Source: Crossiella sp. CA-258035
GTDB taxonomy: Bacteria > Actinomycetota > Actinomycetes > Mycobacteriales > Pseudonocardiaceae
Length of the DNA stretch: 64,000 nucleotides
Assembly: GCF_030064675.1 (NCBI RefSeq)
Contig: NZ_CP116413.1
Coordinates: 5,364,001-5,428,000 of the forward strand
Direction of reading: 5' to 3'
The translations under genes were made by a program, and so were the position numbers. Positions 6,428-58,680 of this stretch are shown here, in pieces. Every line of letters starts with the position of its first letter. The first letter of the stretch is position 1. Under the pieces are notes generated by a model that worked only from the letters and a program-made list of their open reading frames with translations, was not told where the DNA came from and did not search any database.

Positions 6428-6564
6428 CACCGCCGTGTTGGCCGTTGTCGTACACCGTGTTGGCCGAAGTCGTACCCGGTGTTGGCCGAACTGGTACGCC
6501 TGTTCGGCCAACACACCGTCCACAACGGCCAACACTGTGTACGACAACGGCCAACACGGCGGTG
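6428..6564. repeat. modular palindromic repeat, copy A (3+3 units)
   Basis: The ends form a perfect 28-bp inverted repeat (6428-6455 with 6537-6564). Inside, the core GTGTTGGCC recurs on the + strand at 6435, 6457 and 6479, and its complement GGCCAACAC at 6506, 6527 and 6549, a 21-22 bp period. The element fills the gap between two convergent genes: it starts 2 bases after the TAA at 6423-6425 and ends 8 bases before the TGA triplet at 6573-6575. Its reverse complement aligns with copies at 43165 and 58567. It can fold into one long cruciform or hairpin. Confidence 0.9.
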
Positions 6565-6572
6565 TTTGACCG

Positions 6573-7124
6573 TCAGTGCCCGGACTTGCGCTCGCGGAAC
6601 GCGATCATGTTCATCCGGTTGCCGCACCGCACCCCGCAGAACCGCTTGAGCCCGTTGCGGGACAGGTCCAGCAGCAGGCCGGTGCAGTCCGGTGCGGCGC
6701 ACACCCGGAGCCTGCGCATCTCGTCCATCCGGATCACGTCGGCCAGCGCCATCGCGGCCTCCACCCGGATGCGTTCGGCCAGCGGGGCGTCCGGGGCGGT
6801 GGCGTGGATGTGCCAGTCCAGGCCGTCGTGGCGGGCCAGGCGGGGCAGCGCCCGTGCCTCGCGCAGCATCCGGTTGACCACCTCCACCGCCTCGTCGCGG
6901 TCCAGCGTCCACACCTGCCGCAGCAGGTCCCTGGTGGCGCGGACCTCGCCGAGCTCGGCCTCGTCGTGGTCGATGCGGCCGGAGTAGGTGCACCGGGCCA
7001 GCAGGTCGTCCAGCTGCTCGACGGTGGCCAGCTCGTCCGCGCCGCTGCGGGAGGCGCCGGGGTCGGTGTTGCCGAGCATCACCACGAACTCCAGCGACTC
7101 CTCCGTGTCAGGGGCAAAACGCAA
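6573..7124 (-). CDS. CGNR zinc-finger / ABATE-domain transcriptional regulator
   Basis: 183 residues. The N-terminal ABATE-like domain contains a typical LxxxLGNT-like opening (FVVMLGNTDP) and an ExxxxRDLLRQ helix. The C-terminal CGNR zinc finger is clear: CAAPDC, LLLDLSRNGLKRFC and CGNRMNMIAFRER, giving the four cysteines and the stress-response-type Cys-Gly-Asn-Arg box. Start is TTG 7124 with GAGGAG six bases upstream. It diverges from an EamA exporter across 76 bases and is a likely local regulator of it, as is common for CGNR genes (inference). Confidence 0.85.
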   Translation of the reverse strand: MRFAPDTEESLEFVVMLGNTDPGASRSGADELATVEQLDDLLARCTYSGRIDHDEAELGEVRATRDLLRQVWTLDRDEAVEVVNRMLREARALPRLARHDGLDWHIHATAPDAPLAERIRVEAAMALADVIRMDEMRRLRVCAAPDCTGLLLDLSRNGLKRFCGVRCGNRMNMIAFRERKSGH

Positions 7125-7200
7125 TTTGACTCCTCACATCCCCGGACCTAGCGTCAGGACTGAAGCAACGTTAGCCCATGACACACAGCCGGGAGGCGCC

Positions 7201-8166
7201 ATGAAGCTGTCGCCGACGTCCGCGGGGCTTGCCGCGGCGTTCGTCTCCGTAGTCTCCTTCGGCACCTCGGGGCCGTTCGTGAAACCGCTGCTCACCGCGG
7301 GCTGGTCACCCGCGGCCGCGGTGACCGCGCGGGTGCTGGTGGCCGGTCTGGTGCTGCTGCCGTTCACCCTGGCCGCCCTGCGCGGGCGCTGGGAGCTGCT
7401 GTGGCGCGGCCGGTGGCGGGTGCTCGGCATGGGACTCATCGGGGTCGCCTTCACCCAGCTCGCCTACTTCGCCGCGCTCCAGCGCATCCCGGTGGCCACC
7501 GCGCTGCTGGTGGAGTTCCTGGCCCCGCTGCTGCTGGTCGGCGTCACCTGGGTGCTGACCCGGCGCAGGCCGGGGCTGAGCGTGCTGGCCGGTTCGGTGC
7601 TCGCGGTCGGCGGGCTGGTGCTGGTGATCGGACCCGGCGCGGTGCAGGCGGTGGACCCGGTCGGCCTGCTCATCGCCTTCGGCGCGGCGATCGGCTGCGC
7701 GGCCTACTTCGTGATCGCGGCCCGGCCCAGCGAGGGCCTCTCGCCGGTGGCGCTGGCAGGGTCCGGGCTGCTGCTGGCCGGGGTGGTGCTGCTGCTGACC
7801 GGCGCGACGGGCCTGCTGCCGTTCACCGCGACCTTCGGCGAGGTGCCGCTGCTGGGTTCGCCCGCGCCGTGGTGGGTGCCGCTGCTGGTGGTCGGGGTGA
7901 TCTCCACCGCGGTGGCCTACGCGAGCGGGATCGCCGCCTCCAACCTGCTCGGCTCGCGGCTGGCCTCCTTCGTCGGACTGCTGGAGGTGGTCTCGGCCTC
8001 GGTGTTCGCCTGGCTGCTGCTGGGCGAGGAGCTCTCGCCGTTGCAGCTGGCGGGCGGGGCGCTGATCCTCGGCGGGATCGCCGCCGTCCGGGCCGAACGC
8101 CCCGCCCCGCCCGCCGATCAGACTCCGGCCAGCACCTCCGTCACCGCGAGCGCGGTGTCCGGGTAG
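7201..8166 (+). CDS. EamA-family (DMT) transporter, RhtA/YdcZ-like exporter
   Basis: 321 residues with ten hydrophobic segments arranged as two EamA repeats (residues ~10-135 and ~150-300). Typical features: SFGTSGPFVKPLL in TM1, FAALQRIPVATALLVEFLAPLL in the first repeat, and SRLASFVGLLEVVSASVFAWLLLGE in the second, the signature of small-molecule or amino-acid exporters of the drug/metabolite superfamily. ATG 7201 with GGGAGG upstream is preferred to longer in-frame starts. The last 49 bases overlap the tail of the convergent DUF5682 gene. Probably controlled by the divergent CGNR regulator. Substrate unknown. Confidence 0.85.
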   Translation: MKLSPTSAGLAAAFVSVVSFGTSGPFVKPLLTAGWSPAAAVTARVLVAGLVLLPFTLAALRGRWELLWRGRWRVLGMGLIGVAFTQLAYFAALQRIPVATALLVEFLAPLLLVGVTWVLTRRRPGLSVLAGSVLAVGGLVLVIGPGAVQAVDPVGLLIAFGAAIGCAAYFVIAARPSEGLSPVALAGSGLLLAGVVLLLTGATGLLPFTATFGEVPLLGSPAPWWVPLLVVGVISTAVAYASGIAASNLLGSRLASFVGLLEVVSASVFAWLLLGEELSPLQLAGGALILGGIAAVRAERPAPPADQTPASTSVTASAVSG

Positions 8167-10859
8167 CGGCCGAGCAGCGCCACCCCCGCCGGAGCCGCGG
8201 CGGCCCAACCGCCGTCGCAGCCCAGCAGTCCGGCCAGTGCGTCGCAGGTGGCCGGGTGAACGGCCAGCAGCGCGAGACCCTGGGTGGCCCGCCGGGGCTG
8301 CGCCGCAACGGGTTCCGGGGCCAGCCACGGCGGCACCCACTCGTCCAGCGCCGCGAGCCTGCCCGGGAACAGGCGGCCCGCCTCCCGGATGAGCAGCGGC
8401 AACAGCTCCGCGCCGCGGGCGCGCAGGGTGGTGATCAGCGTCGGCAGCCAGGGCAGCAGCACCGGGTCCGGCAGCCGGGCGAAGGCGTTGGACACCGCCT
8501 CCACCACGAAGTCGGCCAGCGCGGGGGCCGGTTCCAGCGCGTGCACGAACCCGCTGAGGTAACGCGGATAAGCGTTCAGCACCAAGGGATTCGCCAGTAG
8601 CTCGTCGCAGCGGGACCGCAGCTCCGCGCGGGAGAGGCGGCCCAGCTGGACCTGCGCCGCCCACAGCAGCGCCACCTTCGAGGGCTCCTGCGGGTGTGAC
8701 TGGGTGATGGCCAGTTCCAGCTGGGTCCGGTCGCAGCCGAGGGACAGCGCCAGGGACTCCATGCTGAACAGGAAGCCCAGCATCGCCGCGACCTGGCCGA
8801 CCCCGGCGTCCTCGTCGGTGAACGCGGTGGGCAGCAGCGTGCAGTAGTGCGCGTAGCCGGCCTTGACGAAGGCCTCGATCCACTGCGGCAGCACGGGTTC
8901 GCTGGTGCGGTAGTGCGCGAGCAGCCCGCGCACCCGCCGCAGCACCTCCGGCGCGCCGTCCACCGTGCGTTCGGTGCTCAGCACCTCCAGCGCCCGCACG
9001 CCCAGCTCCCCGGCCAGCCGGGCGCTGCGCAGGTACCGCAGGGCGTCCTCCACCGCTTCCAGTACCGAGGCGGCGGTGGCCTGCGGGTGGTAAGCCTTGC
9101 GCCGCAAGCGTTGTTCCAGCACCTGCTCGATGCTGACGCCCTCGTAGCCCAGCTCGATCAGCGCCCGCTGGTGGGTGCCCAGCGCCAGGTCCCAGGACTC
9201 CTGGATCGGCCGCTCCCCGAGCCGCCGCTGCCCCATGATCGGCCGCGCGGCGCCCTGCGGCATCAGGTACCGCAGCATCCACAACACGTCCGAGCACAGC
9301 GCCAGCTCCGGCTGACCGGCGATGTCCAGCAACGCCCGCCGCACCCCGCGCTGGTCCAGCTTGAGGTTCAGCGGCGCGAGCCGGTCGTGCACATCCCGGG
9401 CCAGCGGCGGCAGCGCCTCGTAACCGACCTGGCCGATCCGGTCGCCGCCCATCATGATCTCGACCAGCCGGCGCACGTCCCGCCTGCCCGGCACCACGTC
9501 CTTCTCGATGCAGGTGACCGCCGCGTCCTGGAAGTCGTACGGCGTCGGCCGGGCCCGGTCCCGCATACCGGCCAACAGGATCGAGGTCTCGAAGACCGCG
9601 ATCGCGTCGGCGGTGGAGGCGAGGTAGCCGTTGCGGCGGGCGGCGCGCACGATCTCCACACACCAGCCCAGCAGCTCCGCCTCGTCCAGCCCGTCCAGCA
9701 CCGGCGGCCGTCGCAGGAACCCGGACAGCTGGTCCGCGGGCGTGGTCGCGGCCACCGGGGCGGGCAGGGCCGCGGGTTTCTTCCGCTTCGCCCCGGTCTG
9801 CCCGTCCAGCTGGAAGGGTTTCACCTTGGTGCGCTTGAGGTTCTTCGCCCACTCGGTGGCCGCGATGGACACCGAACCGGCGGCCAGCCCGAACTGGGCC
9901 TCGATCGCCGCGTTGCTGGACGGGATCAGCCCGTACTGCCAGGTGCTCGCGCTGCGCGGGCTGATCGTGAAGCCGTCGCTGCCCGCGACGCCGAACTCCG
10001 CGACCCGGCTGGCCGCGTGGAAGGCACCGCAGACGTAGAGGCAGTCGGCGGGATCAGTGCCGCTCGCGGCCAGGTGCTCGCGCATCCGCGTCCACATGTA
10101 CCGCTCGCGGTCCTCATCCACCCGCACCCGGTGTGGATCACCGGGCGCGAGGCGGCGGAACAGGCTGCCGATCAGGAACATCACCTGCCGGTAGCTGTCG
10201 TGGTCGGTGTCGCCCAGCGGCAGCTCGACGTACTGGTGCCACCACTCCGACCAGTGCCGCACCTTGCCGTGGTGCAGCAGGTGCTCCTCCAGTTCGGCGA
10301 AGCGCGGCCGCAGGTCGCCGATCTCCACGCCGACCGCGTCGCCGTGCAGGGCGGCCTCCTCCTCGGCCGGTTCGGCGGCCGGGGTTTCCGGCCGGTCCCA
10401 CTGGAAGACGTGGTCGGCGGAACGGTCCACCAGCACCAGCTCCACCCCGGGGGTGTCCAGCGCGTAGGCGATCGCCTGGTACTCCGCGGATGCCTCGGTG
10501 ATCGGCGCGACCACCGACAGCGGCGACCAGTCGGCCGGGAAACCGTCCACTTCGGACGCGAACGCCTGCACCGCCACCGGCAACCGGCAGTTGCGCAGCT
10601 CGGTGAGCAGCGGGGCCAGGTCCTCGCACAGCTCCAGGTAGACCACCTTGGGCTGCTTCTCCCGCAGCCGCCGTGCCATCGCCACCGCCGAGGCCGGGGA
10701 GTGGTGGCAGACCGGGAAGATCTCCAGCGGCTCGCGCACCGCCCGGTCCACGTCGTCCACGATGCCGAGCAGGATCCCTTCCAGCGCACCGGGTCCGTCC
10801 GCGAACGCGGCGGCGGCCTCGCTCAGCTGGCCGCGCAGGGTGTCGAAGGCACCGCTCAT
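8118..10859 (-). CDS. DUF5682-family protein (YehM-like), last gene of a MoxR/VWA operon
   Basis: 913 residues, cytoplasmic, no membrane segment. The N-terminus (PLEIFPVCHHSPASAVAMA, VVYLELCEDLAPLL, VAVQAFA) is the hallmark of DUF5682, and HAASRVAEFG follows near residue 290. The C-terminal half is a long alpha-helical region. In enterobacteria the homologue YehM is encoded with an AAA ATPase (YehL), a VWA protein (YehP) and a SWIM protein (YehQ); the same partners lie directly upstream here. Its ATG overlaps the stop of the AAA ATPase by four bases, so translation is coupled. The molecular role is unknown; such AAA/VWA systems are thought to act as chaperone-like remodelling machines. Confidence 0.85.
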   Translation of the reverse strand: MSGAFDTLRGQLSEAAAAFADGPGALEGILLGIVDDVDRAVREPLEIFPVCHHSPASAVAMARRLREKQPKVVYLELCEDLAPLLTELRNCRLPVAVQAFASEVDGFPADWSPLSVVAPITEASAEYQAIAYALDTPGVELVLVDRSADHVFQWDRPETPAAEPAEEEAALHGDAVGVEIGDLRPRFAELEEHLLHHGKVRHWSEWWHQYVELPLGDTDHDSYRQVMFLIGSLFRRLAPGDPHRVRVDEDRERYMWTRMREHLAASGTDPADCLYVCGAFHAASRVAEFGVAGSDGFTISPRSASTWQYGLIPSSNAAIEAQFGLAAGSVSIAATEWAKNLKRTKVKPFQLDGQTGAKRKKPAALPAPVAATTPADQLSGFLRRPPVLDGLDEAELLGWCVEIVRAARRNGYLASTADAIAVFETSILLAGMRDRARPTPYDFQDAAVTCIEKDVVPGRRDVRRLVEIMMGGDRIGQVGYEALPPLARDVHDRLAPLNLKLDQRGVRRALLDIAGQPELALCSDVLWMLRYLMPQGAARPIMGQRRLGERPIQESWDLALGTHQRALIELGYEGVSIEQVLEQRLRRKAYHPQATAASVLEAVEDALRYLRSARLAGELGVRALEVLSTERTVDGAPEVLRRVRGLLAHYRTSEPVLPQWIEAFVKAGYAHYCTLLPTAFTDEDAGVGQVAAMLGFLFSMESLALSLGCDRTQLELAITQSHPQEPSKVALLWAAQVQLGRLSRAELRSRCDELLANPLVLNAYPRYLSGFVHALEPAPALADFVVEAVSNAFARLPDPVLLPWLPTLITTLRARGAELLPLLIREAGRLFPGRLAALDEWVPPWLAPEPVAAQPRRATQGLALLAVHPATCDALAGLLGCDGGWAAAAPAGVALLGRYPDTALAVTEVLAGV

Positions 10860-11968
10860 GACAGGGTGGCGATCGCGTCGCGGCCGCCTTCGAGGAACTC
10901 CGGCCAGTTCCCGCCCTCGTCCTTGCTGCGCGGTTCGACGACCCCGTGCAGGTACTTGTTCAGGATCGCCAGGTCCTCCGGCGCGCGCCGGGCCAGTGAA
11001 CCGACCAGCGAGGAGGCCAGCGTGCGGGCGGTCAGCTGCTGGGCGCCGAAGAAGTTGCTGTGCAGGATGGCGTCCTCCAGCACGCCGATCTGCTCCGCGG
11101 TGGACAGCGCGGACTCCAGCTTCTCGTCATCGCTGCCCGCGGCGGCCGCGGCCGCGCGCAGGTCGGCGAAGCTGCGCAGCAGCACGTCCAGCAGGGTGGG
11201 CGGCACGTCCAGCTCGATCTGGTGGCGGCGCAACAGCTCCTCGGTGCGGAAGCGGACGATCTGGGTCTCGCTCTTCTTGTTCGTCACCACCGGGATGCGC
11301 ACGAAGTTGAACCGCCGCTTCAGCGCCGAGGACAGGTCGTTGACGCCCCGGTCCCTGCTGTTCGCGGTGGCGATGATGGAGAAGCCGGGCTTGGCGAAGA
11401 CGATGTTGTCACTGTCCAGCTCCGGCACCGAGATGTACTTCTCGGACAGGATGGAGATCAGCGCGTCCTGCACGTCGCTGGTGGAGCGGGTGAGCTCCTC
11501 GAACCGGCCGATCGCGCCCTGCTCCATCGCGGTCATGATCGGCGAGGGGATCATGGACTGCCTGGACTGGCCCTTGGCGATGACCATGGAGACGTTCCAG
11601 GAGTACTTGATGTGGTCCTCGGTGGTGCCGGCCGTGCCCTGCACGACCAGGGTGGAGTTCCGGGAGATCGCCGCGGCCAGCAGCTCGGCCAGCCAGCTCT
11701 TGCCGGTGCCCGGGTCGCCGATCAGCAGCAGGCCCCGGTCGGAGGCCAGGGTGACGATGGACCGCTCGACGAAACTCCGGTCCCCGTACCACTTCTGCGC
11801 GATCTCCCGGTCCAGGCCGTCGGACCGCTCGGCGCCGAGGATGAACAGGCGCACCATCTTCGGCGAGAGCCGCCAGGCGAAGGGCTTGGGGTTGTCGTCG
11901 ATGGACTCCAGCCAGTCCAGCTCCTCGGCGTACTTGAGCTCGGCGGGGGCGCGCAACAGGTCGGACAT
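10856..11968 (-). CDS. MoxR-like AAA ATPase (YehL-like)
   Basis: 370 residues. AAA core with Walker A GDPGTGKS at residues 84-91, a hydrophobic strand with acidic residues in place of a classical Walker B (QGAIGRFEELTRS), sensor 1 in IIATANSRDRGVNDLSSALKRRF, and a helical C-terminal lid. The MoxR branch typically works with a VWA-domain partner to insert metals or remodel protein complexes; the VWA gene lies immediately upstream with a 10-base gap. It is the third-from-last reading frame in an operon with SWIM, VWA and DUF5682 partners. ATG 11968 with GAAAGG upstream. Confidence 0.88.
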   Translation of the reverse strand: MSDLLRAPAELKYAEELDWLESIDDNPKPFAWRLSPKMVRLFILGAERSDGLDREIAQKWYGDRSFVERSIVTLASDRGLLLIGDPGTGKSWLAELLAAAISRNSTLVVQGTAGTTEDHIKYSWNVSMVIAKGQSRQSMIPSPIMTAMEQGAIGRFEELTRSTSDVQDALISILSEKYISVPELDSDNIVFAKPGFSIIATANSRDRGVNDLSSALKRRFNFVRIPVVTNKKSETQIVRFRTEELLRRHQIELDVPPTLLDVLLRSFADLRAAAAAAGSDDEKLESALSTAEQIGVLEDAILHSNFFGAQQLTARTLASSLVGSLARRAPEDLAILNKYLHGVVEPRSKDEGGNWPEFLEGGRDAIATLS

Positions 11969-11978
11969 GTCGTGCCTT

Positions 11979-15222: not shown

Positions 15223-15236
15223 CGCACCATCTCCTT

Positions 15237-15278
15237 CTGCCGAGTCCCGGTCACACCTCCGTGACGGGGACTCGGCAG
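15237..15278 (-). terminator. 18-bp stem hairpin between the reductase gene and the SWIM operon
   Basis: 15237-15254 pairs with 15261-15278 at 17 of 18 positions (arms start CTGCCGAGTCCC), loop six bases. On the minus strand it follows the SDR stop by 54 bases and precedes the SWIM start codon by 14 bases. The loop on the minus strand reads GGAGGT, a perfect Shine-Dalgarno-like sequence. It may be a terminator or a 5'-leader structure controlling the operon. Confidence 0.7.
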
Positions 15279-15332
15279 AACGTAGTGGCGGCCACCGACA
15301 ATTCCGATCTTGCCCAGCTCAGCCCGCCGGCG

Positions 15333-16073: not shown

Positions 16074-16110
16074 GGTTGCTCCTCTCGCCGGCTTCCCCGG
16101 CTTGACTCCA

Positions 16111-16139
16111 CTAATCTGGACATCCAGTATCCAGATTAG
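16111..16139. promoter_or_regulatory. operator palindrome between SDR and Rrf2 genes
   Basis: CTAATCTGGA (16111-16120) and TCCAGATTAG (16130-16139) are perfect inverted repeats around nine bases. The centre contains further TCCAG-like half sites. It lies midway in the divergent intergenic region, 38 bases from the SDR start and 50 from the Rrf2 start, as expected for an autoregulating Rrf2 operator. Confidence 0.75.
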
Positions 16140-41954: not shown

Positions 41955-41956
41955 GC

Positions 41957-42004: not shown

Positions 42005-43162
42005 ATGACAGTGAGCAGGCTCCGGGAGATCCCCGGCATCGGAGTGGACCTGCTGGCCGACGCGGCGGACGCCACCGCCGACCCGGACCTGCTCCGCCTG
42101 GAGAACCTGGACACCGACCTGCGTCCACCCGCCATCGCCTTGGCGCACACCAGGTCGGCGATCGAGGAGGACGCCGCCAACAGCTACCTCCCGTTCCAGG
42201 GCAGGCACTCCTTACGCGCGGCCGCGGCGGCGCACGTCGGCCGCATCGCCGGCCGCGAGTACGACCCGGACACCGACTGCGTGAGCGTGGTCGGCGGCCT
42301 CAACGGCATCCTCAACACCCTGCTGGCCACCGTGGAACCGGGCCAGGAGGTGGTGCTGTGCGACCCGGTCTACGCGGGCCTGGTCAACCGGGTCCGGCTC
42401 GCGGGCGGCCGCCCCCGCTTCGTCCGCACCGAGCCAACCCCCGCGGGCTGGCAGCTCGACCCGGACGCGCTGGCCGCCGCGGTCGGCCCGGACACCGCCG
42501 CCGTGCTGATGATGGCCCCGGCCATGCCCAGCGGCCTGGTCCTGGACCACCGGCACTGGGCGGCGCTGGCCGATGCCTGCACGCGGCACAACGCCTGGCT
42601 GGTCTACGACGCGGCCATGGAACGCATCCGCTTCGACGGCCTGCCACCAAGTCACCCGGCCGCGCACGAGGGCCTGGCCGACCGGGTGATCACCGTGGGC
42701 TCGGCCTCCAAGGAACTGCGGATGACCGGCTGGCGGGTGGGCTGGGTGGTCGGCCCGGCGCCGATCGTGGCCGACATCCGCCTGGTGGGCCTGACCAACG
42801 TGGTCGCCCAGGTCGGCCTGGCCCAGGAGGCGGTCGCGGCCGCGCTGAGCGCCCCCGACGCCGAGTCCGACGTGGCCGCGGCGACCGCCGAGTGGCAACG
42901 GCGCTGCGAGACCGTGCTCGCCCAGCTCGACGGCTACCCGGTGATCCGCCCGCACGGCGGTTGGTCCCTGTTGCTGGACACCCGGCCACTGGGCCTCACC
43001 CCGAAGGAACTCTCCGGCCGCCTGTTCGAACGCGGCCGGATCGCGGCCACCCCGATGAACTGGTGGGGCCCCAGCGGCGAGCACTACTTACGCCTGGTCT
43101 TCACCAACGAACCAGCCGAGCGACTCAACGACCTCGCCGACCGTTTCCGCCAGTCGCTCTAA
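42005..43162 (+). CDS. PLP-dependent class I/II aminotransferase, atypical active site
   Basis: 385 residues. PLP lysine is K236 in SASKELRMTGWRVGW; the Asp that pairs with the pyridine N is D202 in VYDAAMERI; the substrate-carboxylate Arg is in YLRLVF. The usual NPxNPTG motif is replaced by MMAPAMPSG (168-177), so the Asn that hydrogen-bonds the PLP phenolate is Met174, which is unusual. The family is the aspartate/aromatic aminotransferase fold. ATG 42005 with GGGG upstream. Regulated, most likely, by the divergent XRE-cupin protein. The stop is 2 bases from modular repeat copy B. Reaction uncertain: aminotransferase, lyase or racemase. Confidence 0.85.
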   Translation: MTVSRLREIPGIGVDLLADAADATADPDLLRLENLDTDLRPPAIALAHTRSAIEEDAANSYLPFQGRHSLRAAAAAHVGRIAGREYDPDTDCVSVVGGLNGILNTLLATVEPGQEVVLCDPVYAGLVNRVRLAGGRPRFVRTEPTPAGWQLDPDALAAAVGPDTAAVLMMAPAMPSGLVLDHRHWAALADACTRHNAWLVYDAAMERIRFDGLPPSHPAAHEGLADRVITVGSASKELRMTGWRVGWVVGPAPIVADIRLVGLTNVVAQVGLAQEAVAAALSAPDAESDVAAATAEWQRRCETVLAQLDGYPVIRPHGGWSLLLDTRPLGLTPKELSGRLFERGRIAATPMNWWGPSGEHYLRLVFTNEPAERLNDLADRFRQSL

Positions 43163-43164
43163 CT

Positions 43165-43303
43165 CCACCGCCGTGTTGGCCGTTGTCGTACGGAGTGTTG
43201 GCCGTTGTCGTACCGGGTGTTGGCCGTTATGGACGGCGTGTTGGCCGGGTGGGCGTACCAGTTCGGCCAACACTGTGTGCGACAACGGCCAACACGGCGG
43301 TGG
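43165..43303. repeat. modular palindromic repeat, copy B (4+2 units)
   Basis: Terminal inverted repeats are 24-bp perfect (43165-43188 with 43280-43303). The core GTGTTGGCC occurs at 43173, 43195, 43217 and 43238, and GGCCAACAC at 43265 and 43287, again with 21-22 bp spacing. The element exactly fills the space between two convergent stop codons (TAA ends 43162, the reverse TGA begins at 43305). Compared with copy C it carries one extra forward unit. Confidence 0.9.
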
Positions 43304-43304
43304 G

Positions 43305-44120
43305 TCAGCGCAGCGCGCCCGCGGTGGCGCCGGCTTGGATCTGGCGCTGGAAGACCACGTACGCGACGAGCACCGGCAGCATCGCGATGGTCAGTCCGGC
43401 GAACAGGCCGCTCCAGTCGCCGCGGTAGCCCTGGCTGGTGGACAGCGCGGCCAGGCCCTGGGCCAGCACGTAGTCGTCCGGGTCCGGGTTGAGCACCAGG
43501 GGCAGCAGGTACTGGTTCCACAGGCCGAGGAAGTTGAAGATGGCCACCGAGACCAGGCCCGGCTTGGCCATCGGCAGCATCACCCGGAAGAACACCCCGG
43601 CGTGCGAGCAGCCGTCCAGGAAGGCGGCCTCGGCGATCGCGGTGGGCAGGCCGCGGAAGAAGGCGTGCAGGAAGAAGATGGTGAACGGGGTGGCGAAGGC
43701 GGTGTAGACCAGGACCAGGCCGAGCTGGGTGCCCAGCAGGCCCAGCTGCTGCACGGTGAAGAACAGCGGCACCAGCGCCAGGAAGGTGGGGAAGAACATC
43801 GAGGCGACGAACAAGTAGTAGACGAACCTGTTGCCGGGGAAGGGATAGCGGGCCAGGGCATAGGCGGCGAGCGAGCCGAGCAGCATGGTCAGGGCAAGTG
43901 CGCTGCCGACCACGACCGCGGAGTTGAGGAAGTAGCGGCCGATGTCGGCCTCGGTCCAGGCCCGGCCGAAGTTCGTCCACTGTGGACTCTGCGGCAGCGA
44001 CCACGGGCTGGACAGGATCTCCCGGTCGGTCTTGAGCGCGCTGAGCACCGCCCACAGCAACGGGAACGCGGTGACCAGCGTCCAGGACAGCAGCGCCAGG
44101 TGCAGCGGGATCCGTCTCAT
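43305..44120 (-). CDS. ngcG: carbohydrate ABC transporter permease, NgcG-like
   Basis: 271 residues from ATG 44120, fixed by ATGA overlap with the upstream permease. Six TM segments, and the MalG-type EAA loop EAAFLDGCSHAGVFFRVMLP, which contacts the ATPase. The order solute-binding protein, permease, permease and the solute-binding protein's similarity to NgcE place it as NgcG of an N-acetylglucosamine/chitobiose importer. No ATPase gene is in the operon; in Streptomyces such systems borrow the shared MsiK ATPase (known of the family). The stop abuts repeat copy B. Confidence 0.82.
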   Translation of the reverse strand: MRRIPLHLALLSWTLVTAFPLLWAVLSALKTDREILSSPWSLPQSPQWTNFGRAWTEADIGRYFLNSAVVVGSALALTMLLGSLAAYALARYPFPGNRFVYYLFVASMFFPTFLALVPLFFTVQQLGLLGTQLGLVLVYTAFATPFTIFFLHAFFRGLPTAIAEAAFLDGCSHAGVFFRVMLPMAKPGLVSVAIFNFLGLWNQYLLPLVLNPDPDDYVLAQGLAALSTSQGYRGDWSGLFAGLTIAMLPVLVAYVVFQRQIQAGATAGALR

Positions 44121-47437: not shown

Positions 47438-47438
47438 C

Positions 47439-51288: not shown

Positions 51289-51422
51289 GTGCCGTCCCTC
51301 GTCCCGTCCTGGTTCGCTATACAGCCTCATCCGGCCCGTGCTAAGGATAGATCACCAGGCCGGAAGGGCCGAGGCCGTCGCGCTTTCCGTTCGCGGACAA
51401 CCACATCGTTGGGGGCAACACT

Positions 51423-53162
51423 ATGTGCCGGATCTACGGCTACTTCGGACATGGGTTCCACCCCACCGCACTCGACGGCGCGCGGGACGCCCAGCTCTCC
51501 GGCGGACCGGACGTCCAGCAGCACACCAGCGGCCCGGACTGGGGCATCGGCTGCAACCGTCTGTCCATTCAGGACCCCAGCACCGGCAGGCAGCCATTCC
51601 GCAACGCCGAGGGCACGGTGCACGCGGTGTTCAACGGCGAGATCTACAACTTCCGGGCCATCCGGGCCGAGCTGGCCGCGCACGGCGTGCACGTGGACGG
51701 CGACTCCGACGGCTCGGTCCTGGTGCCCTACTACGAGCTGCACGGGGACCGGTTCACAGAGCGGCTGGAGGGCATGTTCGCCATCGCCGTGGTGGACCTG
51801 CGCCGCGGCCGCGAGCTCAAGCTGTGGTGCGACCACCTCGCGGTGAAGAGCCTGTACTACGCGCACACCCAGGACGGCATCGCCTTCTCCTCCGAGCTGC
51901 GCGGCCTGACCGCGCTGGTGGAGAAGCCCCTGGACGTGGACCCGCTCGCGGTCGACGACTACCTCAACTGGCAGTGCCAGCCCAACGGATCCTCCTGGCA
52001 CACCGGGGTTTCCGCGCTGCACCCCGGCGAGGTGCTGGTCTACGACGGCCGGTCCGCGCGCACCCGGCGGTGGTGGCAGGAGACCGAGCCGGTCACCGAC
52101 GAGGGCAACGACCCCGAGCGCCTGGCCGCGTTGCTGGAACGGGAGGTGGCGCAGATGTCGTTGCAGTCCGCGCCGATCGCGGTGCAGGTCTCCGGTGGCC
52201 TGGACTCCAGCGTGCTGGCCACCCTGCTCAAGCAGCGCCGCGGCGACGTGACCGGCTTCCACGTCACGCACGAGGGCACGCACGACTCCGACGAGCTGGC
52301 CTACGCCAGGGACTCGGCCGCCTTCGCCGGGATTCCCCTTGAGGTGGTGGAGATCCGCGAGGCCGAGCTGCCGGAGCTGATCCCGGCCACGGTGGCCGCC
52401 CTGGGCGCGCCCAACGCCACCCCGCACGCGCTGAGCGCCTACGCGCTGTTCCGGGAGATCTCCGCCGGCGGCTTCCGGGTCTGCTTCGTCGGCGACGGCG
52501 CGGACGAGCAGTTCGGCGGCTACCGGCGCTACAGCACCGCGCTGGCCGCCGATGAGGACAGCTGGGCCGCCCGCTACCTGGACCGGCTTTCCCTTGTGCC
52601 GGAAGCGGAGTACCGGCGGCTCTACACCCCGGAGTACCGCGAGCTGCTCGACTCCAGGGGCAGCAGCAGGCAGCGCGCGCTGGAGCTGCTCGCCCGCCCC
52701 GCGCCCTCCCGGCTGGAGCAGCTGCTCAGCTTCGACCGGCTGCACAAGCTGCCCAGCCTCAACCTGCGCAAGCTGGACCACCTGTCCATGGCGCACGCGG
52801 TGGAGGGCCGGGTGCCCTACTGCCAGCCGGAGGTCACCCGGTTCGCCCGGCGCACCCCGGACACGTGGAAGATCAACGGGTCCAGCCGCAAGAAGATCCT
52901 CTGGGACGCCGGCGCCCGGTCCATCCCGGCCTCGGTCGCGGCCAGGGAGAAGCAGCCGTTCACCTTCCCGGTCAGCGCTTTCATGGCCCCCGGCGGCACG
53001 CTGTGGGACTTCGCCCGCGAGGTGCTCGCCCGGCCCCGGCTGTGCGCCTCGGGCTTCCTCAGCGAGGCCGCCGTGCGCCAGGTGGTCACCGAGCACGGCG
53101 CGGGCCAGGACCACTCGCGACTGCTGTGGGGCCTGATGGTGCTGGAGATCTCCCTGCCCTGA
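51423..53162 (+). CDS. asparagine synthase-like glutamine-dependent amidotransferase
   Basis: 579 residues. The N-terminal glutaminase domain begins MCRIYGYFG, so the catalytic Cys is present, with NGEIYNFRAIR as the second motif. The synthetase domain has the PP-loop SGGLDSSV and FVGDGADEQFGGYRRY. AsnB homologues activate a carboxylate as acyl-adenylate and form an amide; in natural-product loci they amidate, or close lactams as in lasso cyclases. The C-terminus REKQPFTFPVSAFMAPGG departs from housekeeping AsnB. ATG 51423 with GGGGG upstream. Divergent from the kinase pair and closed by a long hairpin. Confidence 0.88.
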   Translation: MCRIYGYFGHGFHPTALDGARDAQLSGGPDVQQHTSGPDWGIGCNRLSIQDPSTGRQPFRNAEGTVHAVFNGEIYNFRAIRAELAAHGVHVDGDSDGSVLVPYYELHGDRFTERLEGMFAIAVVDLRRGRELKLWCDHLAVKSLYYAHTQDGIAFSSELRGLTALVEKPLDVDPLAVDDYLNWQCQPNGSSWHTGVSALHPGEVLVYDGRSARTRRWWQETEPVTDEGNDPERLAALLEREVAQMSLQSAPIAVQVSGGLDSSVLATLLKQRRGDVTGFHVTHEGTHDSDELAYARDSAAFAGIPLEVVEIREAELPELIPATVAALGAPNATPHALSAYALFREISAGGFRVCFVGDGADEQFGGYRRYSTALAADEDSWAARYLDRLSLVPEAEYRRLYTPEYRELLDSRGSSRQRALELLARPAPSRLEQLLSFDRLHKLPSLNLRKLDHLSMAHAVEGRVPYCQPEVTRFARRTPDTWKINGSSRKKILWDAGARSIPASVAAREKQPFTFPVSAFMAPGGTLWDFAREVLARPRLCASGFLSEAAVRQVVTEHGAGQDHSRLLWGLMVLEISLP

Positions 53163-53219
53163 CACGACAAATGGGCCGGGCGGTGGCGAGAACAGCCACT
53201 GCCCCGCCCGTTTGTCGTG
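53163..53219. terminator. long imperfect hairpin terminator
   Basis: The outer arms CACGACAAA and TTTGTCGTG and inner GGGC/GCCC and GTGGC/GCCAC pairings give a ~22-bp stem with single mismatches, between the convergent asparagine-synthase-like and nucleotidyltransferase genes. Confidence 0.85.
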
Positions 53220-53225
53220 CTGGAA

Positions 53226-54347
53226 CTACTTCCGGCCAAGCTCCGGGATGTTGAGGTCACCCTCCAGCTCACGCAGCCGGTGCACGTCGAACATCCGGCG
53301 CACCATCGGCGTCTGCCAGCGGTGCACCACGGTCTTGCCGTCGTCCACCTCGTCCAGGTAGGCCAGGTCGTTGGGGCGCAACGGGTCCAGCAGCTCGGTC
53401 GGCACCCGGCCGGGGAAGATCTCCGCGCAGTGGTGCAGCGCGAAGTAGGCCTCCTTGGTGAAGCCGAGCTGCCCGGCCCGCGCGGCCAGGTCGCTGAAGT
53501 CGTGCTCCCCGGCCAGCAGCGCCAGGATGTCGACCAGCTTGTAGAGCACCAGGTCCTTGAGCGCGAGCACCTCGTTGCGGTGCGCGGCCTCCCTGGCGAA
53601 GTGCAGACAGCTGAAGATCAGCATGTCGGTCGGGGAGATCACGCTGAGCCCGTTGAGCTCGATCCGGTTGTCCAGCAACGCGGATACCGCGGCGTCGCTG
53701 CGGTTGCCGGTCATCAGGTCGATGGAGAAGTGCACGTCCAGGCGGTGGCACTCCAGCACCGAGGCTTCCGGCGTGGGCTTCATGTAGGAGTAGGTCTGGT
53801 GCGAGTGCATGGCCATGAACATGACCTGCCGCCGCGCCGCCGGGCGCACCGAGCTCGTCTCGTAGTCCCAGCTGCCCTGCACGTACCCGGCCTCCTGCAA
53901 CGCCGCGGTGGCCGCGGGCAGCTGCTCCCGGTCCACCAGCAGGTCGTTGTCGTGGAAGGCGCGCATGCCCGGCGAGGGGTAGGCCATCGCGGCCACCGCG
54001 GCGCCCTTGAGCACCGCGCTGCGCACCCCGGCCGCGCTCAGCGCCGCCTGCACTTCGGCGGTGCGCGAGCGCTGCTCCTCGGCCATCAGCTCCTGGCCGG
54101 CCGCGGTGACCTTGAGCGACTTGATGAAGTAGGAGGAGCGCAGGGTCTGCCGGTGCGCGATGACGAAGCGCAGGATGTTGTGCCAGGCCACGCCGATGAC
54201 CCGGTGCACGGTCAGCATGCCCAGCACCTGGTTCCAGTCCAGCGGGGTGTTGAGCAGCTTGAGCATCGCGTCGGCCTCGTCGGGCCGCGGATCGGGCAGG
54301 GACAGCAGGAGGACGAGCTCCGTCTCCTGGGACACCGGTTCGGTCAC
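53226..54347 (-). CDS. nucleotidyltransferase-fold protein (NTP_transf_5)
   Basis: 373 residues. The motif LKGAAVAAMAYPSPGMRAFHDNDLLVD (K-G..Y....R...D.D.LV), seen as GMRAFHDNDLLVD, is that of PF14907 nucleotidyltransferases; ECHRLDVHFSIDL supplies the third acidic residue. Such proteins occur in RiPP and other peptide loci (for instance with HPr-kinase-like proteins in lasso-peptide clusters), where they transfer nucleotides or nucleotide sugars. Last gene of the PhyH-transketolase-HAD operon, 4 bases after the HAD gene. ATG 54347... the frame reads from GTG or ATG there with AAGGGTGG upstream. Activity unproven. Confidence 0.82.
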   Translation of the reverse strand: MTEPVSQETELVLLLSLPDPRPDEADAMLKLLNTPLDWNQVLGMLTVHRVIGVAWHNILRFVIAHRQTLRSSYFIKSLKVTAAGQELMAEEQRSRTAEVQAALSAAGVRSAVLKGAAVAAMAYPSPGMRAFHDNDLLVDREQLPAATAALQEAGYVQGSWDYETSSVRPAARRQVMFMAMHSHQTYSYMKPTPEASVLECHRLDVHFSIDLMTGNRSDAAVSALLDNRIELNGLSVISPTDMLIFSCLHFAREAAHRNEVLALKDLVLYKLVDILALLAGEHDFSDLAARAGQLGFTKEAYFALHHCAEIFPGRVPTELLDPLRPNDLAYLDEVDDGKTVVHRWQTPMVRRMFDVHRLRELEGDLNIPELGRK

Positions 54348-54351
54348 GGTC

Positions 54352-55140
54352 TTACCACCCTTCGGGACGGAAGTCGTGCAGGAATGCGGCGAGGTCGCCG
54401 TCGAGCTTGCGGTCGGCGGCCGCGCTGGCCGCCTCGTCGGCGTGCTGGGTCGCGATGCCGAGGGCGCAGGCCGCCAGCATCGAGGCGTCGGTGGCGGTGT
54501 CGCCGATGGCCATGGTGGCGCTGAGGTCCGGCTCGTTGAACCGCCGGCGCAGGTGCCTGCGCAGCGCGGCGGCCTTGGAGGTGCCGCGCGGGCGCACCAC
54601 GTGCGCGCCGAACGGGCCGATGGTGACCGCCTCGCAGTCCAGCCCCGCCACCATCTCCGGCACCGGGACGCGGCTGCGGAAGATGGTCACCGCGGTGAAC
54701 CACGGGATGTCCGCGGTGCCCTTGCCGGTGACCTCGATCTGCCGCCTTGGCACCCGGTAGGCCATCGCGAACTGGGCCGCGGCCCGCGCGCTGCTGGCGT
54801 AGAACTCGCCGGAGCACTCCGCCACCAGGTCGGTGGCGGAGTCCTCGGCCAGCGTGCGCAGCACCTCGTTCGGGCAGCTCAGTGAGAAGGACAACTCGTT
54901 GACGCCCAAGGCGATCCGCACGTTGCCCTCGCTGAGCAGCACCTCGTCGTCGACCTCGGCGAACAGGTCGTCCAGGTGCCGCAGGTTGCGGAAGGAGCGG
55001 GCCGCCCTGCCGGTGATCACCAGCGGCAGCACCCCGCGCTTGCGCAGTGCCCGCAGTCCGGCCACCACGCCCTCGTAGGGCTCGTCGGCCTCGTCGATCA
55101 GCGTGCCGTCCAGGTCCAGCGCGGCGTACCGGATCCTCAC
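54352..55140 (-). CDS. HAD-superfamily phosphatase (Cof/SPP-like)
   Basis: 262 residues. Motif I is ALDLDGTLID at residues ~6-15 with nucleophile and acid Asp; motif II is VITGRAARSF; motif III Lys is in GTSKAAALRRHL; motif IV is AIGDTATDASMLAACALGIA. The type IIB cap lies between. Probably removes a phosphate from a sugar-like intermediate made by the neighbouring transketolase or kinases. ATG 55140 overlaps the transketolase-C stop (ATGA). Confidence 0.88.
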   Translation of the reverse strand: MRIRYAALDLDGTLIDEADEPYEGVVAGLRALRKRGVLPLVITGRAARSFRNLRHLDDLFAEVDDEVLLSEGNVRIALGVNELSFSLSCPNEVLRTLAEDSATDLVAECSGEFYASSARAAAQFAMAYRVPRRQIEVTGKGTADIPWFTAVTIFRSRVPVPEMVAGLDCEAVTIGPFGAHVVRPRGTSKAAALRRHLRRRFNEPDLSATMAIGDTATDASMLAACALGIATQHADEAASAAADRKLDGDLAAFLHDFRPEGW

Positions 55141-56108
55141 GTCGCCGCGACGGTGGTCGGCACCCGGCCGGCCCCGCGCACCGCCTCCAGCCAGTCCCGC
55201 AGCTCGGGCACGCCCGGGATGTTGAAGTGCCCGTGCAGGTAGTCCGGCGTGCCGACGATGTACGGGTACTCATCCGGCACGCCGACCCGCCGGAACGGGA
55301 CGCCACGGCCGGTCTCCGCGATCGCCTCGGCCACCGCGGTGCCCAGGCCGCCGATCACCGAGTGGTCCTCCAGCGTGATGATCGGCAGTCCCTCGGCCAC
55401 CAGCTCAGCCACCGCGGCGGCGTCGAAGGGCTTGATGCTGGGCATGCTCACCAGCCGCACCCGCAGGCCGGACTCGGCGAACCTGTCCACCCAGTCCCTG
55501 GCCACCGGCAGCATGTTCCCGGTGGCGATCAGCGCCGCGTCCCCGCCGTCGGTGACGGTGATGGCCTTGCCCAGCTGGATCTTGGTGCCGGGAGCGTGGA
55601 TCTCGGGCAGGGCGTGGTTCTCCAGCGCGAAGCGCACGTACACCGGGCCGTCCACCTCGTGCGCCTGGGCCAGCAGCTGCCGGGTCTCGGCCAGGTCGCC
55701 GGGGCAGAGCACGGTCATGTTCGGCAGCGCCCGCATGATGGCCAGGTCCTCGATCGCCAGGTGCGCGATGCCGGAGGCGCTGCGGGACAGCCCGGAGCTG
55801 GTGCCGATCAGCCGCAGCCGGGTCTTGGCGAAGGCGGCGTCCACCCGCACCTGGTCGAAGGGCCGGTAGAGCAGGAAGGTGCTGCAGTTCCACAGGTAGA
55901 CCTGCTTGCCTGCCGAGGCCAGCCCGGCGGCGACCGAGATCGCGTTCTGCTCGGCGATGCCCACGTTGAGGAACCGCTGCGGGTAGGTCTCGATGAACGG
56001 CTCGGTGCCGTTGAGCTTGCCGTCGGCCACGATCAGGTAGGTGTCCCCGAACTCGCGGCCCTTCTCCAGCAACAGGTCTCCGACCGCCTGGCCGACCGTG
56101 GTGGTCAT
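55137..56108 (-). CDS. transketolase C-terminal (pyrimidine-binding) subunit
   Basis: 323 residues from ATG 56108 (ATGA overlap with the N-subunit stop). YPQRFLNVGIAEQNAISVAAGLA carries the catalytic Glu of the TPP pyrimidine domain; seen as VGIAEQNAISVAAGLA. Then SGLSRSASGIAHLAIEDLA and the C-terminal domain with EDHSVIGGLGTAVAEAI. With its neighbour it forms a split transketolase/DXS-like enzyme that moves two-carbon units between sugars; split versions are frequent in secondary metabolism (known generally). Substrate unknown. Confidence 0.9.
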   Translation of the reverse strand: MTTTVGQAVGDLLLEKGREFGDTYLIVADGKLNGTEPFIETYPQRFLNVGIAEQNAISVAAGLASAGKQVYLWNCSTFLLYRPFDQVRVDAAFAKTRLRLIGTSSGLSRSASGIAHLAIEDLAIMRALPNMTVLCPGDLAETRQLLAQAHEVDGPVYVRFALENHALPEIHAPGTKIQLGKAITVTDGGDAALIATGNMLPVARDWVDRFAESGLRVRLVSMPSIKPFDAAAVAELVAEGLPIITLEDHSVIGGLGTAVAEAIAETGRGVPFRRVGVPDEYPYIVGTPDYLHGHFNIPGVPELRDWLEAVRGAGRVPTTVAAT

Positions 56109-56887
56109 CGCAGGCCTCGCAGACTCACGACCAGCTCGCTGAAGGTCAGCCGCCGATAGTGCCAGTCGGGCTCGTGTTCCATCATGGCAACCCCCTTGCC
56201 TTTCACGGTGGTGGCCAGGACGACCTTCGGCCGGTCCTGCGGCGCCCGCAGCGCCTCCTCCAGCTCCTCGACCGAGTGCCCGTCCACCCGGTGCACCTGC
56301 CAGCCGAAGGCGGCGAACTGCTCGTCCAGCTTGCTCTCGATCACCTCGTTGGTGACGAAGGAGCCCTGCAGCCGGTTGTCGTCCACGATGACCACCAGGT
56401 TGTCCAGCTTCAGGGTGGGCGCCAGCATGGCCGCCTCCCAGATCTGGCCCTCCTGGCACTCGCCGTCGCCGACCAGCACGTAGGTGCGGTAGTCCCGGTT
56501 GTCGTGCTTGGCCGCCAGCGCCACCCCGATGCCGATGGAGATGCCGCGGCCCAGCGGACCGGAGTCGGCTTCCAGACCGGGCAGGCCGTAGCGGGCCAGG
56601 ATGGCCGGCACCTCGCCGCCGTCGACGTTGAAGGCGTCCAGGCGCTTGCGGTCGAAGAGCCCGGCCGCGGCCATGGCCAGGTAGATCGCGGCCGCGCAGT
56701 GGCCCTTGCTCGGGATGAAGCGGTCCCGGTCCGGCCAGTCCGGGCGCTCCGGATCCAGCTTCAGCACCCGCATGAACAGGGTGTGGACGATCTCGATCGC
56801 GGACAGGTTGGACGGGATGTGCCCGGTCTCGGCGTGCGCGGTCATCCGGATCGCCTCGCGCCGGAGCTGCTGTGGCGTGGTCATCAC
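56105..56887 (-). CDS. transketolase N-terminal (TPP-binding) subunit
   Basis: 260 residues. The TPP motif GDG-x(n)-N is VLVGDGECQEGQIWEAAM followed by VVIVDDNRLQGS. HAETGHIPSNLSAIEIV and DRFIPSKGHCAAAIYLAM are typical of transketolase N-subunits. The start is GTG 56887 overlapping the PhyH stop as GTGA; ATG 56884 follows directly. It is co-translated with the C-subunit and together they make one active alpha2beta2-type enzyme in the cytoplasm. Confidence 0.9.
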   Translation of the reverse strand: MMTTPQQLRREAIRMTAHAETGHIPSNLSAIEIVHTLFMRVLKLDPERPDWPDRDRFIPSKGHCAAAIYLAMAAAGLFDRKRLDAFNVDGGEVPAILARYGLPGLEADSGPLGRGISIGIGVALAAKHDNRDYRTYVLVGDGECQEGQIWEAAMLAPTLKLDNLVVIVDDNRLQGSFVTNEVIESKLDEQFAAFGWQVHRVDGHSVEELEEALRAPQDRPKVVLATTVKGKGVAMMEHEPDWHYRRLTFSELVVSLRGLR

Positions 56888-57741
56888 CCGTTGCCTCCCG
56901 CTCTGGCCTCGTGGCCCTTGATGCCCTGGCTGGCCCGGCGGCGGCGCATGGTCTCGGCGAGGGAGAGCGGGTGCGCGTCGTCCCAGGCGATGGTGTTGGC
57001 CATCATCTCCCGCACCACCGGCGTCATCCGGTCCAGGTAGCCCTCCTGGCGCATGAACCGCCAGGAGGTGTGCCCGCCGGTGGGCTCGTCGGCGGCCTGC
57101 AGGTTGATGTGCAGGGTGCGGCGCTCGACCCCGGCCGAACCGGAGCCCCGGTGCAGGGTGTGGTGGTTCATGAACAGCACGTCGCCGGCCTTGGCGCGCA
57201 CCACCTTCTCGCCGGGCAGCGTGCCGGTGCCCTTGCTCTCGGCCTGGGCGCGTTCTTCCTCGGTCAGCGGCCGCTTGTGCGAGCCGGGGACCACCCGGAA
57301 GCAGTCGTCGTCGGTGAGGCAGACGTTGAACTGGACGTGGGTGCTGCGGCCGTCCGGGGAGTACCGGTCGGTCTCCATGTTGTCCTTGTGCCAGTTCAGC
57401 TCATAGTCCACTGTGGACGGTTCCCACAGCGCGTGCGCGGTCCAGAAGCGCAGTCTCCCACCCAGCACCGCGTGCACGAAACCCATCACGCCGGGGTGCT
57501 CGAACACCTCGGCGAAGACCGGGTCGTACAGGCTCGGCTCGAAGATGTGGCTGACCCCCCAGGTATCGGTCTCCTGCTCGGTGCGCAGGGTGTACCTGGT
57601 GTCGTAGTCCCCGGGTTTGGCGCGCACCGCGGCCGCGGCACGGTCCACCGCGGCCCGCCAGGTGGCGCGGGTGGACTCCTCGATCACTCCTGGGACTAGG
57701 ACGAATCCTTCGTCCACGAATCCGTGAACGTACTGGTTCAT
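56884..57741 (-). CDS. phytanoyl-CoA dioxygenase-family (PhyH) Fe(II)/2-oxoglutarate oxygenase
   Basis: 285 residues from ATG 57741 with GAGAGG four bases upstream. Metal triad: HxD in NWHKDNMETDRY and the distal His in MNHHTLHRGSG, with the 2-oxoglutarate Arg in RRTLHINL. FRVVPGSHKRPL is the usual PhyH strand. These enzymes hydroxylate, halogenate or desaturate small molecules. First gene of the operon PhyH, transketolase N and C, HAD, NTP_transf_5; the upstream 116 bases contain two short palindromes (TCCACAGTGGA and GTCCATAATGGAC). Confidence 0.9.
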   Translation of the reverse strand: MNQYVHGFVDEGFVLVPGVIEESTRATWRAAVDRAAAAVRAKPGDYDTRYTLRTEQETDTWGVSHIFEPSLYDPVFAEVFEHPGVMGFVHAVLGGRLRFWTAHALWEPSTVDYELNWHKDNMETDRYSPDGRSTHVQFNVCLTDDDCFRVVPGSHKRPLTEEERAQAESKGTGTLPGEKVVRAKAGDVLFMNHHTLHRGSGSAGVERRTLHINLQAADEPTGGHTSWRFMRQEGYLDRMTPVVREMMANTIAWDDAHPLSLAETMRRRRASQGIKGHEARAGGNG

Positions 57742-57857
57742 CTTGCCTCTCCACAGTGGACACAATCCTTGGGTGCGTCGTTCGCATCCTGCCAGTCAGT
57801 CCACTGTTTTCCCACCGTCGCGCGACAACGGCGGAGATCACTGTCCATAATGGACGA

Positions 57858-58544
57858 TCAGCCGACCATCGGTCCCCTGGTGTCCCAGCCCAGTTCGGCC
57901 GTGCCGCGGAAGAACCGGCCGTTGGACCGGTCGGCGGGCAGGGTCAGCAGCTCGACCAGGTTCGCTGCCGCGGGCTCCGGCTCGTGCGGTGCGTCCTCGG
58001 TGCCCATCTCGGTCCGGATCCAGCCCGGGCAGTAGGCGAAGGCCGCCAGGTCGCCTGCGGTGAAGTGCTGCGCCAGCGACAGGATCAACGAGTTGGCCGC
58101 CAGTTTTGATGCGCGGTAGGCGAAGGAGGCCCCGTCGGCGTCCTGGAGCCTGCCCATCCCCGAGGAGACGCAGACGATCCGGCCGCTCCCCCGCGCGATC
58201 ATCGCCGGCGCGTAGGCCTGCACCAGCGCCACCGCGCCGAAGAGGTTGACCTCGAAGGTCTGCCGCAGGTCCTGCGCGGAGAGCGCGAACAGGTCGCCGT
58301 AGCCACGCCGGGGATCGTCCAGGTACACCCCGGCGTTGCTGACCAGCACATCCACCTCAGCCGGGTCGAACGGCCTTGCCACATCGGGGTTTCGCAGGTC
58401 GAGCACCCGGTAGTCATCGACGTCCTGGTGGTCGGGCGAGGCGGCCAGTCCCGCCCCCAGCACCCGGTAGCCCGCGGCGCGCAACGCCCGGCACAGGTGC
58501 CGTCCCAGGCCGCGCGATACTCCGGTGACCAGGACGTTGTGCAT
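57858..58544 (-). CDS. short-chain dehydrogenase/reductase
   Basis: 228 residues. VLVTGVSRGLGRHLCRAL (TGxxxGxG), SNAGVYLDD (NAG), catalytic Ser in VCVSSGMGRL and YRASK. A short SDR with a Trp-rich tail (FFRGTAELGWDTRGP). It lies 116 bases upstream of the PhyH operon on the same strand and downstream of the ABC exporter, with repeat copy C between. Likely part of the same biosynthetic locus, acting on a sugar or alcohol intermediate. ATG 58544. Confidence 0.88.
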   Translation of the reverse strand: MHNVLVTGVSRGLGRHLCRALRAAGYRVLGAGLAASPDHQDVDDYRVLDLRNPDVARPFDPAEVDVLVSNAGVYLDDPRRGYGDLFALSAQDLRQTFEVNLFGAVALVQAYAPAMIARGSGRIVCVSSGMGRLQDADGASFAYRASKLAANSLILSLAQHFTAGDLAAFAYCPGWIRTEMGTEDAPHEPEPAAANLVELLTLPADRSNGRFFRGTAELGWDTRGPMVG

Positions 58545-58566
58545 ACTCGAAGCCTAACCCCCAACC

Positions 58567-58680
58567 CGCCGCCGTGTTGGCCGTTGTCGTACACAGTGTT
58601 GGCCGTTCTGGACGGTGTGTTGGCCGGAGGGCGTACAAGTTCGGCCAACACCCTGTACGACAACGGCCAACACGGTGGGT
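58567..58680. repeat. modular palindromic repeat, copy C (3+2 units)
   Basis: Inner 22-bp perfect inverted repeats (58572-58593 with 58654-58675). The core GTGTTGGCC occurs at 58574, 58596 and 58617, and GGCCAACAC at 58643 and 58665. It begins 4 bases after the reverse-strand TAA of the ABC exporter gene (58685-58687) and lies 23 bases upstream of the SDR start. It is the shortest copy and aligns with the reverse complement of copy A minus one unit. Confidence 0.9.

Follow-up and report, generated by a model that had tools for sequence, protein, structure and literature searches.

RUP and Correia elements are miniature inverted-repeat transposable elements (MITEs) with TA duplication, and in Neisseria inverted DNA uptake sequences serve as terminators. 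Closer to the elements studied here are the repetitive extragenic palindromes (REPs), which one account describes as high-copy, strain-variable sequences that occupy convergent and tandem intergenic gaps as inverted pairs; they often lie no more than ~20 bp from a stop codon, which their ends can supply (PMC3733652). A second account places REPs frequently between convergent genes and reports that they bind gyrase, IHF and Pol I (PMC1525189). In this work we analysed a family of palindromic arrays, three copies of which lie in a 64-kb stretch (the window; contig NZ_CP116413.1, positions 5,364,001 to 5,428,000) of Crossiella sp. CA-258035, whose genome is a single contig of 9.17 Mb (G000 hereafter). 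Copies A (6428..6564), B (43165..43303) and C (58567..58680), to which no strand is assigned, consist of units of 21-22 bp (consensus GTGTTGGCCGWWSTSGTACNNN) that first repeat in one direction and then appear inverted, which lets either strand fold as a long hairpin. We consider it probable that these arrays are genus-restricted, non-autonomous hairpin cassettes, comparable to REPs and to bacterial interspersed mosaic elements (BIMEs), which spread to the 3′ ends of genes and probably act as two-way terminators.

The likeness to GTAG and CGTC REPs and to the BIMEs of E. coli lies in position, distance from the stop codon and supply of the stop codon itself. The Crossiella unit differs in that it is not a palindrome of 20-40 bp: the sole palindromes within it, GGCC and GTAC, measure 4 bp, and two opposed units are needed for the long stem. 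The units stand in tandem before the inversion, and the array edges are TAACCCCACC-like, with neither a GTAG nor a CGTC tag. REP doublets forming hairpins (REPINs) with a REP-associated tyrosine transposase (RAYT) are also short non-autonomous inverted repeats in genome-wide populations; the arrays are distinguished from these paired REPs by containing up to eight recognised units and, as from GTAG-type REPs, by the absence of a Y1_Tnp match in G000. With the RUP and Correia MITEs they have in common that they are short inverted-repeat elements, and three Crossiella sites would fit a TA duplication, although two stop codons require TA on both sides in any case. No units adjoin the DDE_3 gene of G000, whereas an IS630-type MITE would share its ends with a resident element of that type. 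The Neisseria terminators likewise consist of a short repeated word that is inverted to give a hairpin after genes, whereas the Crossiella units form tandem arrays, and no observation ties them to DNA uptake, for which no test was made. Because the palindromic unit and the GTAG or CGTC tag are lacking, we call the arrays a variant of the REP/MITE kind and not REPs. A literature search, made mostly without subscription papers, found no published repeat of this kind in Crossiella.

Anatomy of the arrays and extent of the family

The 19-base unit GTGTTGGCCGTTGTCGTAC matched the window eight times at up to three mismatches, always within copies A, B and C, in comparison with a mean of 0.02 matches in 100 shuffles. 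Copy A consists of three units and three inverted units, copy B of four and two, and copy C of three and two, with a tandem period of 22 in A and B and of 21 in C. The inverted arms measure 39 nt (97% identity) in A, 49 nt (86%) in B and 37 nt (92%) in C, and contain unbroken runs of 28, 24 and 22 bp. The reverse complement of A is 92% identical to C over 109 bp and 86% identical to B over 103 bp (A and B in direct orientation, 81%), and these matches therefore indicate shared ancestry, the asymmetric centre included. The RNA of copy A has a folding energy of -110.7 kcal/mol (z -12.6), a stability that none of 200 shuffles equalled, and the median z over the 61 arrays containing units in both directions was -9.4. 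Among these 61 arrays, 49 run from the plus to the minus orientation and 12 from minus to plus.

Searching with the unit at up to two mismatches gave 214 matches in G000 and none for the reversed control. The sister species of Crossiella gave 239 (G001), 684 (G002) and 28 (G003) matches. On the other hand, only two were found in G060, a strain of the same species that is 95-97% identical over pieces of the window; this count, from an assembly of 80 contigs, covers units at up to two mismatches plus 13 sites that were read, and divergent arrays may exist elsewhere in it. The search comprised 60 genomes, the own one included. Among the 56 outside Crossiella, 42 had no match and 14 had one to three, which is the chance level, since the reversed control gave 11 in those genomes. 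The exact unit was present in 103 stretches of named genomes, 101 of them from Crossiella sp. S99.2; the other two, a metagenome bin (L081) and a Weissella cibaria contig (L111), hold single exact units that are probably chance or stray DNA. Judged by these searches, the family seems restricted to Crossiella and near-absent in one strain of this species. An assembly artefact was rejected as the cause of the empty sites in G060, because these look like natural spacers that are either short or contain a terminator.

Alignment of 374 TTGGCC-anchored units of G000 gave the consensus GTGTTGGCCG-W-W-S-T-S-GTAC-NNN, in which TTGGCC was set by the anchoring. Despite the GC-rich genomes, positions 11 and 12 were A or T in 333 and 351 of the 374 units (in G001, in 381 and 377 of 398), and position 14 was mostly T. 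G001 fits the consensus more loosely and has additional cores such as CAACTGGTAC (24/398 units). Arrays contain one to eight recognised units (up to five mismatches), and their edge, approximately TAACCCCACCNCG-GTGTTGG, directly adjoins the stop codon of one neighbouring gene or of both. The left and right arms within an array co-vary: in the 49 plus-then-minus arrays, flank identity between own arms was 0.546 vs 0.479 for permuted partners (0/5000 permutations), and that of the outer unit was 0.925 vs 0.909 (55/5000).

These results confirm the observations of a preliminary description, made from the letters of the window, and bear out its interpretation in part. The three copies are real and lie where it had placed them; the repeated unit, its 21-22 bp spacing, the lengths of the unbroken arm runs and the common ancestry of A, B and C were all confirmed, as was the potential to form RNA hairpins. 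Unit number varies, as proposed, in a dispersed family well beyond three copies. A restriction to three copies, or a common occurrence in unrelated GC-rich genomes, had been named as speaking against such a family; the genome instead holds 214 matches, and matches outside the genus are at chance level. The preliminary description did not mention the link to stop codons, array gain and loss among strains, the composites around a ~700-bp core or the array-free region near the origin.

Position of the arrays after stop codons

Seventy arrays were mapped in the stretches around the listed matches at up to two mismatches, a sample and not a full census, with genes called by our own codon-score program, which missed at least one gene of the window (~7.15-8.12 kb) and may have produced false reverse genes. 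Fifty arrays were located in convergent gaps, 20 in tandem gaps and none in divergent gaps, while the array-free gaps of the same loci were 22 convergent, 134 tandem and 64 divergent. The median distance from the stop codon to the first unit was 10 bp. TAA accounted for 41 of the 101 array-side stops (within 40 bp), in comparison with 15/352 in a 400-kb background (chi-square p 1.6e-21) and 10/146 at background convergent ends, and CCC directly followed 52 of the 101. In L147, L155 and L183 the stop codon is located within the outer unit. The array edge often seems to supply the stop codon of the neighbouring gene itself. In a 200-kb stretch picked by coordinate and already known to hold arrays, 4 of 31 convergent pairs had an array; none of 42 did in 200 kb near the origin. 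Convergent pairs lacking arrays often had plain hairpins or overlapping ends.

In the window, copies A and B occupy convergent gaps. Copy A lies between a metallo-beta-lactamase-fold gene (5325-6425, plus strand), whose TAA stop (6423..6425) is followed by CCCACCGCC and then the first unit, and an ABATE/CGNR zinc-finger regulator gene (6573-7124, minus strand) with a TGA stop (6573..6575). Copy B is flanked by a class I/II aminotransferase gene (42005-43162, plus strand), with a TAA stop (43160..43162) 10 bp from the first unit, and by an ABC permease gene (43305-44120, minus strand), with a TGA stop (43305..43307) 9 bp from the array. Copy C lies in a tandem gap and directly trails the ABC transporter gene (58685-60526, minus strand), its TAA stop (58685..58687) being 11 bp away; the gene on its other side encodes a short-chain dehydrogenase (57858-58544, minus strand). 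Elsewhere in the window, 108-bp tandem repeats with 78-83% identity (1715-2813) were observed in a region where two reverse genes are predicted (1698-2270 and 2291-2980).

Corresponding sites in related genomes

Thirteen sites, those of A, B and C and ten others, were compared in relatives. None of them carries an array in G060. At A and six other sites the stop-to-stop gap in this strain ranges from -26 to 18 bp; two of the 13 hold apparent ordinary terminator hairpins instead, and two are filled by 2-2.5 kb of other DNA. At site B, 14 nt of the array edge are left before other DNA begins, and site C contains a different long palindrome. The facing genes of L165 overlap by 4 nt in G060, G001, G002 and G003 and are 145 bp apart with an array in G000, which is a clean array gain in G000. 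L150 is a 5-bp gap in G060 and G003 and carries arrays in G000, G001 and G002. At L162, L163 and L165, three sites with a 4-nt gene overlap in G060, the TA of the stop codons flanks the extra DNA on both sides. The right gene of L145 has lost its stop in G060, and the difference there is for this reason probably a deletion in that strain; with B, this makes two likely losses in G060. Eight of the 70 arrays share their site with an array in the G001 stretches (79 of the 103 exact-unit stretches were used). On these comparisons gain and loss both appear to operate, and some sites have been reused or inherited.

Copy C was 94.6% identical over 130 bp to an array at 5.68 Mb, 258 kb away, with homology extending from 15 bp before the array to 12-15 bp after it between unrelated flanks. 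Two arrays 4 kb apart (5.747 and 5.751 Mb) were 93.7% identical over 127 bp. Near-identical arrays at separate loci therefore indicate dispersal of whole arrays. They also bear on the idea that the arrays are ordinary terminators which, with no movement at all, became longer where they stood through duplication and template switching and were kept alike by gene conversion. Slippage readily occurs in hairpins and tandem units, the arms co-vary, and array-free convergent gaps often contain simple hairpins, all of which would fit such growth; however, near-identical whole arrays amid unrelated flanks and the clean gain between overlapping genes at L165 are hard to obtain locally, and we regard this origin as improbable.

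At L144 (1932-3041), half-arrays were observed on either side of a gene that matches DUF559 marginally, as if the gene had entered the array or the reverse. An autonomous element with an internal gene was considered for this locus and rejected, as it is a single case with no transposase.

Composite elements with a shared core

Many arrays in G002 are paired around a shared core: 10 composites were compared, with 655-807 bp between arrays and core identities of 83-92%. The core folds into large hairpins. In the first of these, 12 of 46 predicted pairs had changes on both sides among 22 aligned copies; these were 22 of the 25 located (left out were L336, which is the same copy as L318, and, for no particular reason, L124 and L128), the copies are related to each other, and covariation contributes little (-3.8 of -98.7). 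The core also occurs, whole or in part, in G001, G060 and G000 (L158, L191 and L290). Among 67 own-genome sources (66 loci plus the window), the core adjoins an array at L158 and L191 only; in L199 a weak 103-bp core match lies distant from the array. The L155 site holds a bare array in G000 and a composite, L327, in G002.

A coding core was rejected: all frames of at least 100 codons listed for the 10 cores scored negative on codons, and the longest open reading frame of L327 was interrupted by stops in the best match of 8 of the 9 other copies. The core had no match in plasmid or phage collections. At the gathering score, Rfam gave no match for the window or for eight loci, and L327 gave loose matches only, all below the cut-off.

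These composites raise the possibility that the arrays derive, in MITE-like fashion, from an array-core-array element by loss of the core and that the composite, or a lost coding version of it, is what moves. The close similarity of the 10 G002 cores, the hairpin pairs changed on both sides, the bare L155 array of G000 where G002 carries L327, and the presence of the core at array loci L158 and L191 would all fit such a descent. Yet the core is non-coding, lacks plasmid and phage matches and accompanies an array at just two of the 67 own-genome sources, and it may just as well have been inserted into arrays at a later time. We hold this derivation to be possible but rather doubtful.

Distribution around the origin of replication

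As origin marker we used the dnaA-like gene at base 1 of G000, judged by sequence and by the dnaN-, recF- and gyrase-like genes that follow; its relatives lie at 1.15 Mb (G002) and 4.84 Mb (G003). The nearest array was 0.85 Mb from the marker in G000 (p 5e-7 vs a uniform distribution; 71 places, two of them from the 200-kb stretches), 0.62 Mb in G002 (p 1.4e-5; 85 places) and 0.96 Mb in G003 (p 0.013; 19 places), leaving an array-free zone of 1.4-2 Mb around the gene in the three species. The test is weaker in G002 and G003 than in G000, as G003 has only 19 clusters and G002 has a second empty gap, at 5.69-7.24 Mb, that equals the origin gap (strict two-unit pattern, 101 of 114 places listed). 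Among the matches listed, similarity matches in G002 were present in this second gap and none fell in the origin gap.

The palindrome at site C of G060 (L212, 1538-1700) belongs to a second family, a 163-bp near-perfect palindrome (TAGCCCGTGTCCCGTGGATCTCG...) that was matched in each of the five Crossiella genomes, in G000 at 0.053, 0.501, 0.537, 3.31, 6.16 and 6.61 Mb among others; six G000 copies that were inspected lie in divergent, tandem and convergent gaps. This family is not kept from the origin, as 6 of 15 G000 loci (E below 1e-7, among the matches listed) fall within 0.6 Mb of it vs 2.0 expected.

Avoidance of the origin by the arrays, unlike the second palindrome family, would suit binding sites for a DNA-binding protein, such as a nucleoid protein or gyrase, that organises the chromosome. 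So would the 22-bp unit, which corresponds to two helical turns and sets sites on one face, and the A/T kept at positions 11 and 12, with mostly T at 14, in GC-rich genomes. Nevertheless, the arrays seem dispensable, because the same-species strain G060 has merely two unit matches; G001 is less strict at positions 1-3 and 10, and such a role requires neither the link to stop codons nor the covariation of the arms. Altogether, we judge this role unlikely.

Search for an associated enzyme and for terminator signals

The Y1_Tnp family (PF01797, E ≤ 0.001) had no match in G000, G060 or G003 in a search that did not extend to other HUH or recombinase families, three matches in G001 and one in G002. 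A RAYT link was accordingly rejected. The REP-like nature proposed in the preliminary description thus stands for the position beside 3′ ends (50 convergent, 20 tandem and no divergent among the 70 arrays) and is not supported as regards a linked RAYT. An IS630 link was also rejected: none of 16 DDE_3 loci contained a unit (up to four mismatches, either strand) or, on the one strand searched, a TAACCC edge, and G001 and G002 lack a DDE_3 match despite their higher unit counts.

The arrays present the feature expected of a two-way terminator, a stable hairpin right after the stops on both strands. Another hairpin repeat (GATTTTTCGCTCCTGAGTCGCC...) was seen beside the array in L143 (~2799-2964) and on both sides of the array in L151 (~2775-3200), and a piece resembling it, judged by eye, lies at 7.0-7.2 Mb between convergent genes that have no array.

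Discussion

The reading of the arrays as spreading hairpin cassettes is built on observations of their number, structure and placement, of the excess of TAA stops, of the covariation between arms, of whole arrays that are nearly identical and of presence or absence in relatives; from these we infer termination, movement and an enzyme acting in trans. According to this reading, arrays would enter or grow between facing genes whose stops overlap, lie a few bp apart or are separated by a terminator, and would provide each gene with a separate stop codon. There they would probably serve as two-way transcription terminators and 3′-end protectors. Whole arrays may spread to new 3′ ends through the enzyme acting in trans and would afterwards gain or lose single units.

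Several observations weigh against this reading. The differences at L145 and B look like losses in G060, and the TA on both sides of the extra DNA may merely reflect the need for two stop codons. Five of six test sites with conserved neighbours in G001 hold an array or variant array, so that much of the array pattern may be inherited. The comparison of empty sites, as proposed in the preliminary description, gave one clean gain, at L165, and two likely losses. No driver enzyme emerged from the searches made, G000 having no Y1_Tnp match and a single DDE_3 gene with no adjoining units. A scan for hairpins with a T-tract around copy B (43000-43500) gave no sites, and one account of REPs states that they are not specific terminators (PMC1525189).

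A more specific version of the cassette reading is that of a mobile, protein-less cassette of stop codons and terminator, in long and short forms, which enters CTAA overlaps, duplicates TA and leaves separate stops (often UAA) with a shared two-way hairpin, and which is kept from the 1.4-2 Mb origin zone in three species. We put it forward tentatively, as one possibility with the odds against it.

The family raises the question of what moves REP-like repeats without a RAYT. Strains of the same species differ, with ~70 arrays in one and almost none in the other, and constitute a natural test of repeat function. If the reading of spreading cassettes is true, gene ends across the genus Crossiella are being rebuilt by a repeat from which they obtain stop codons and terminators.

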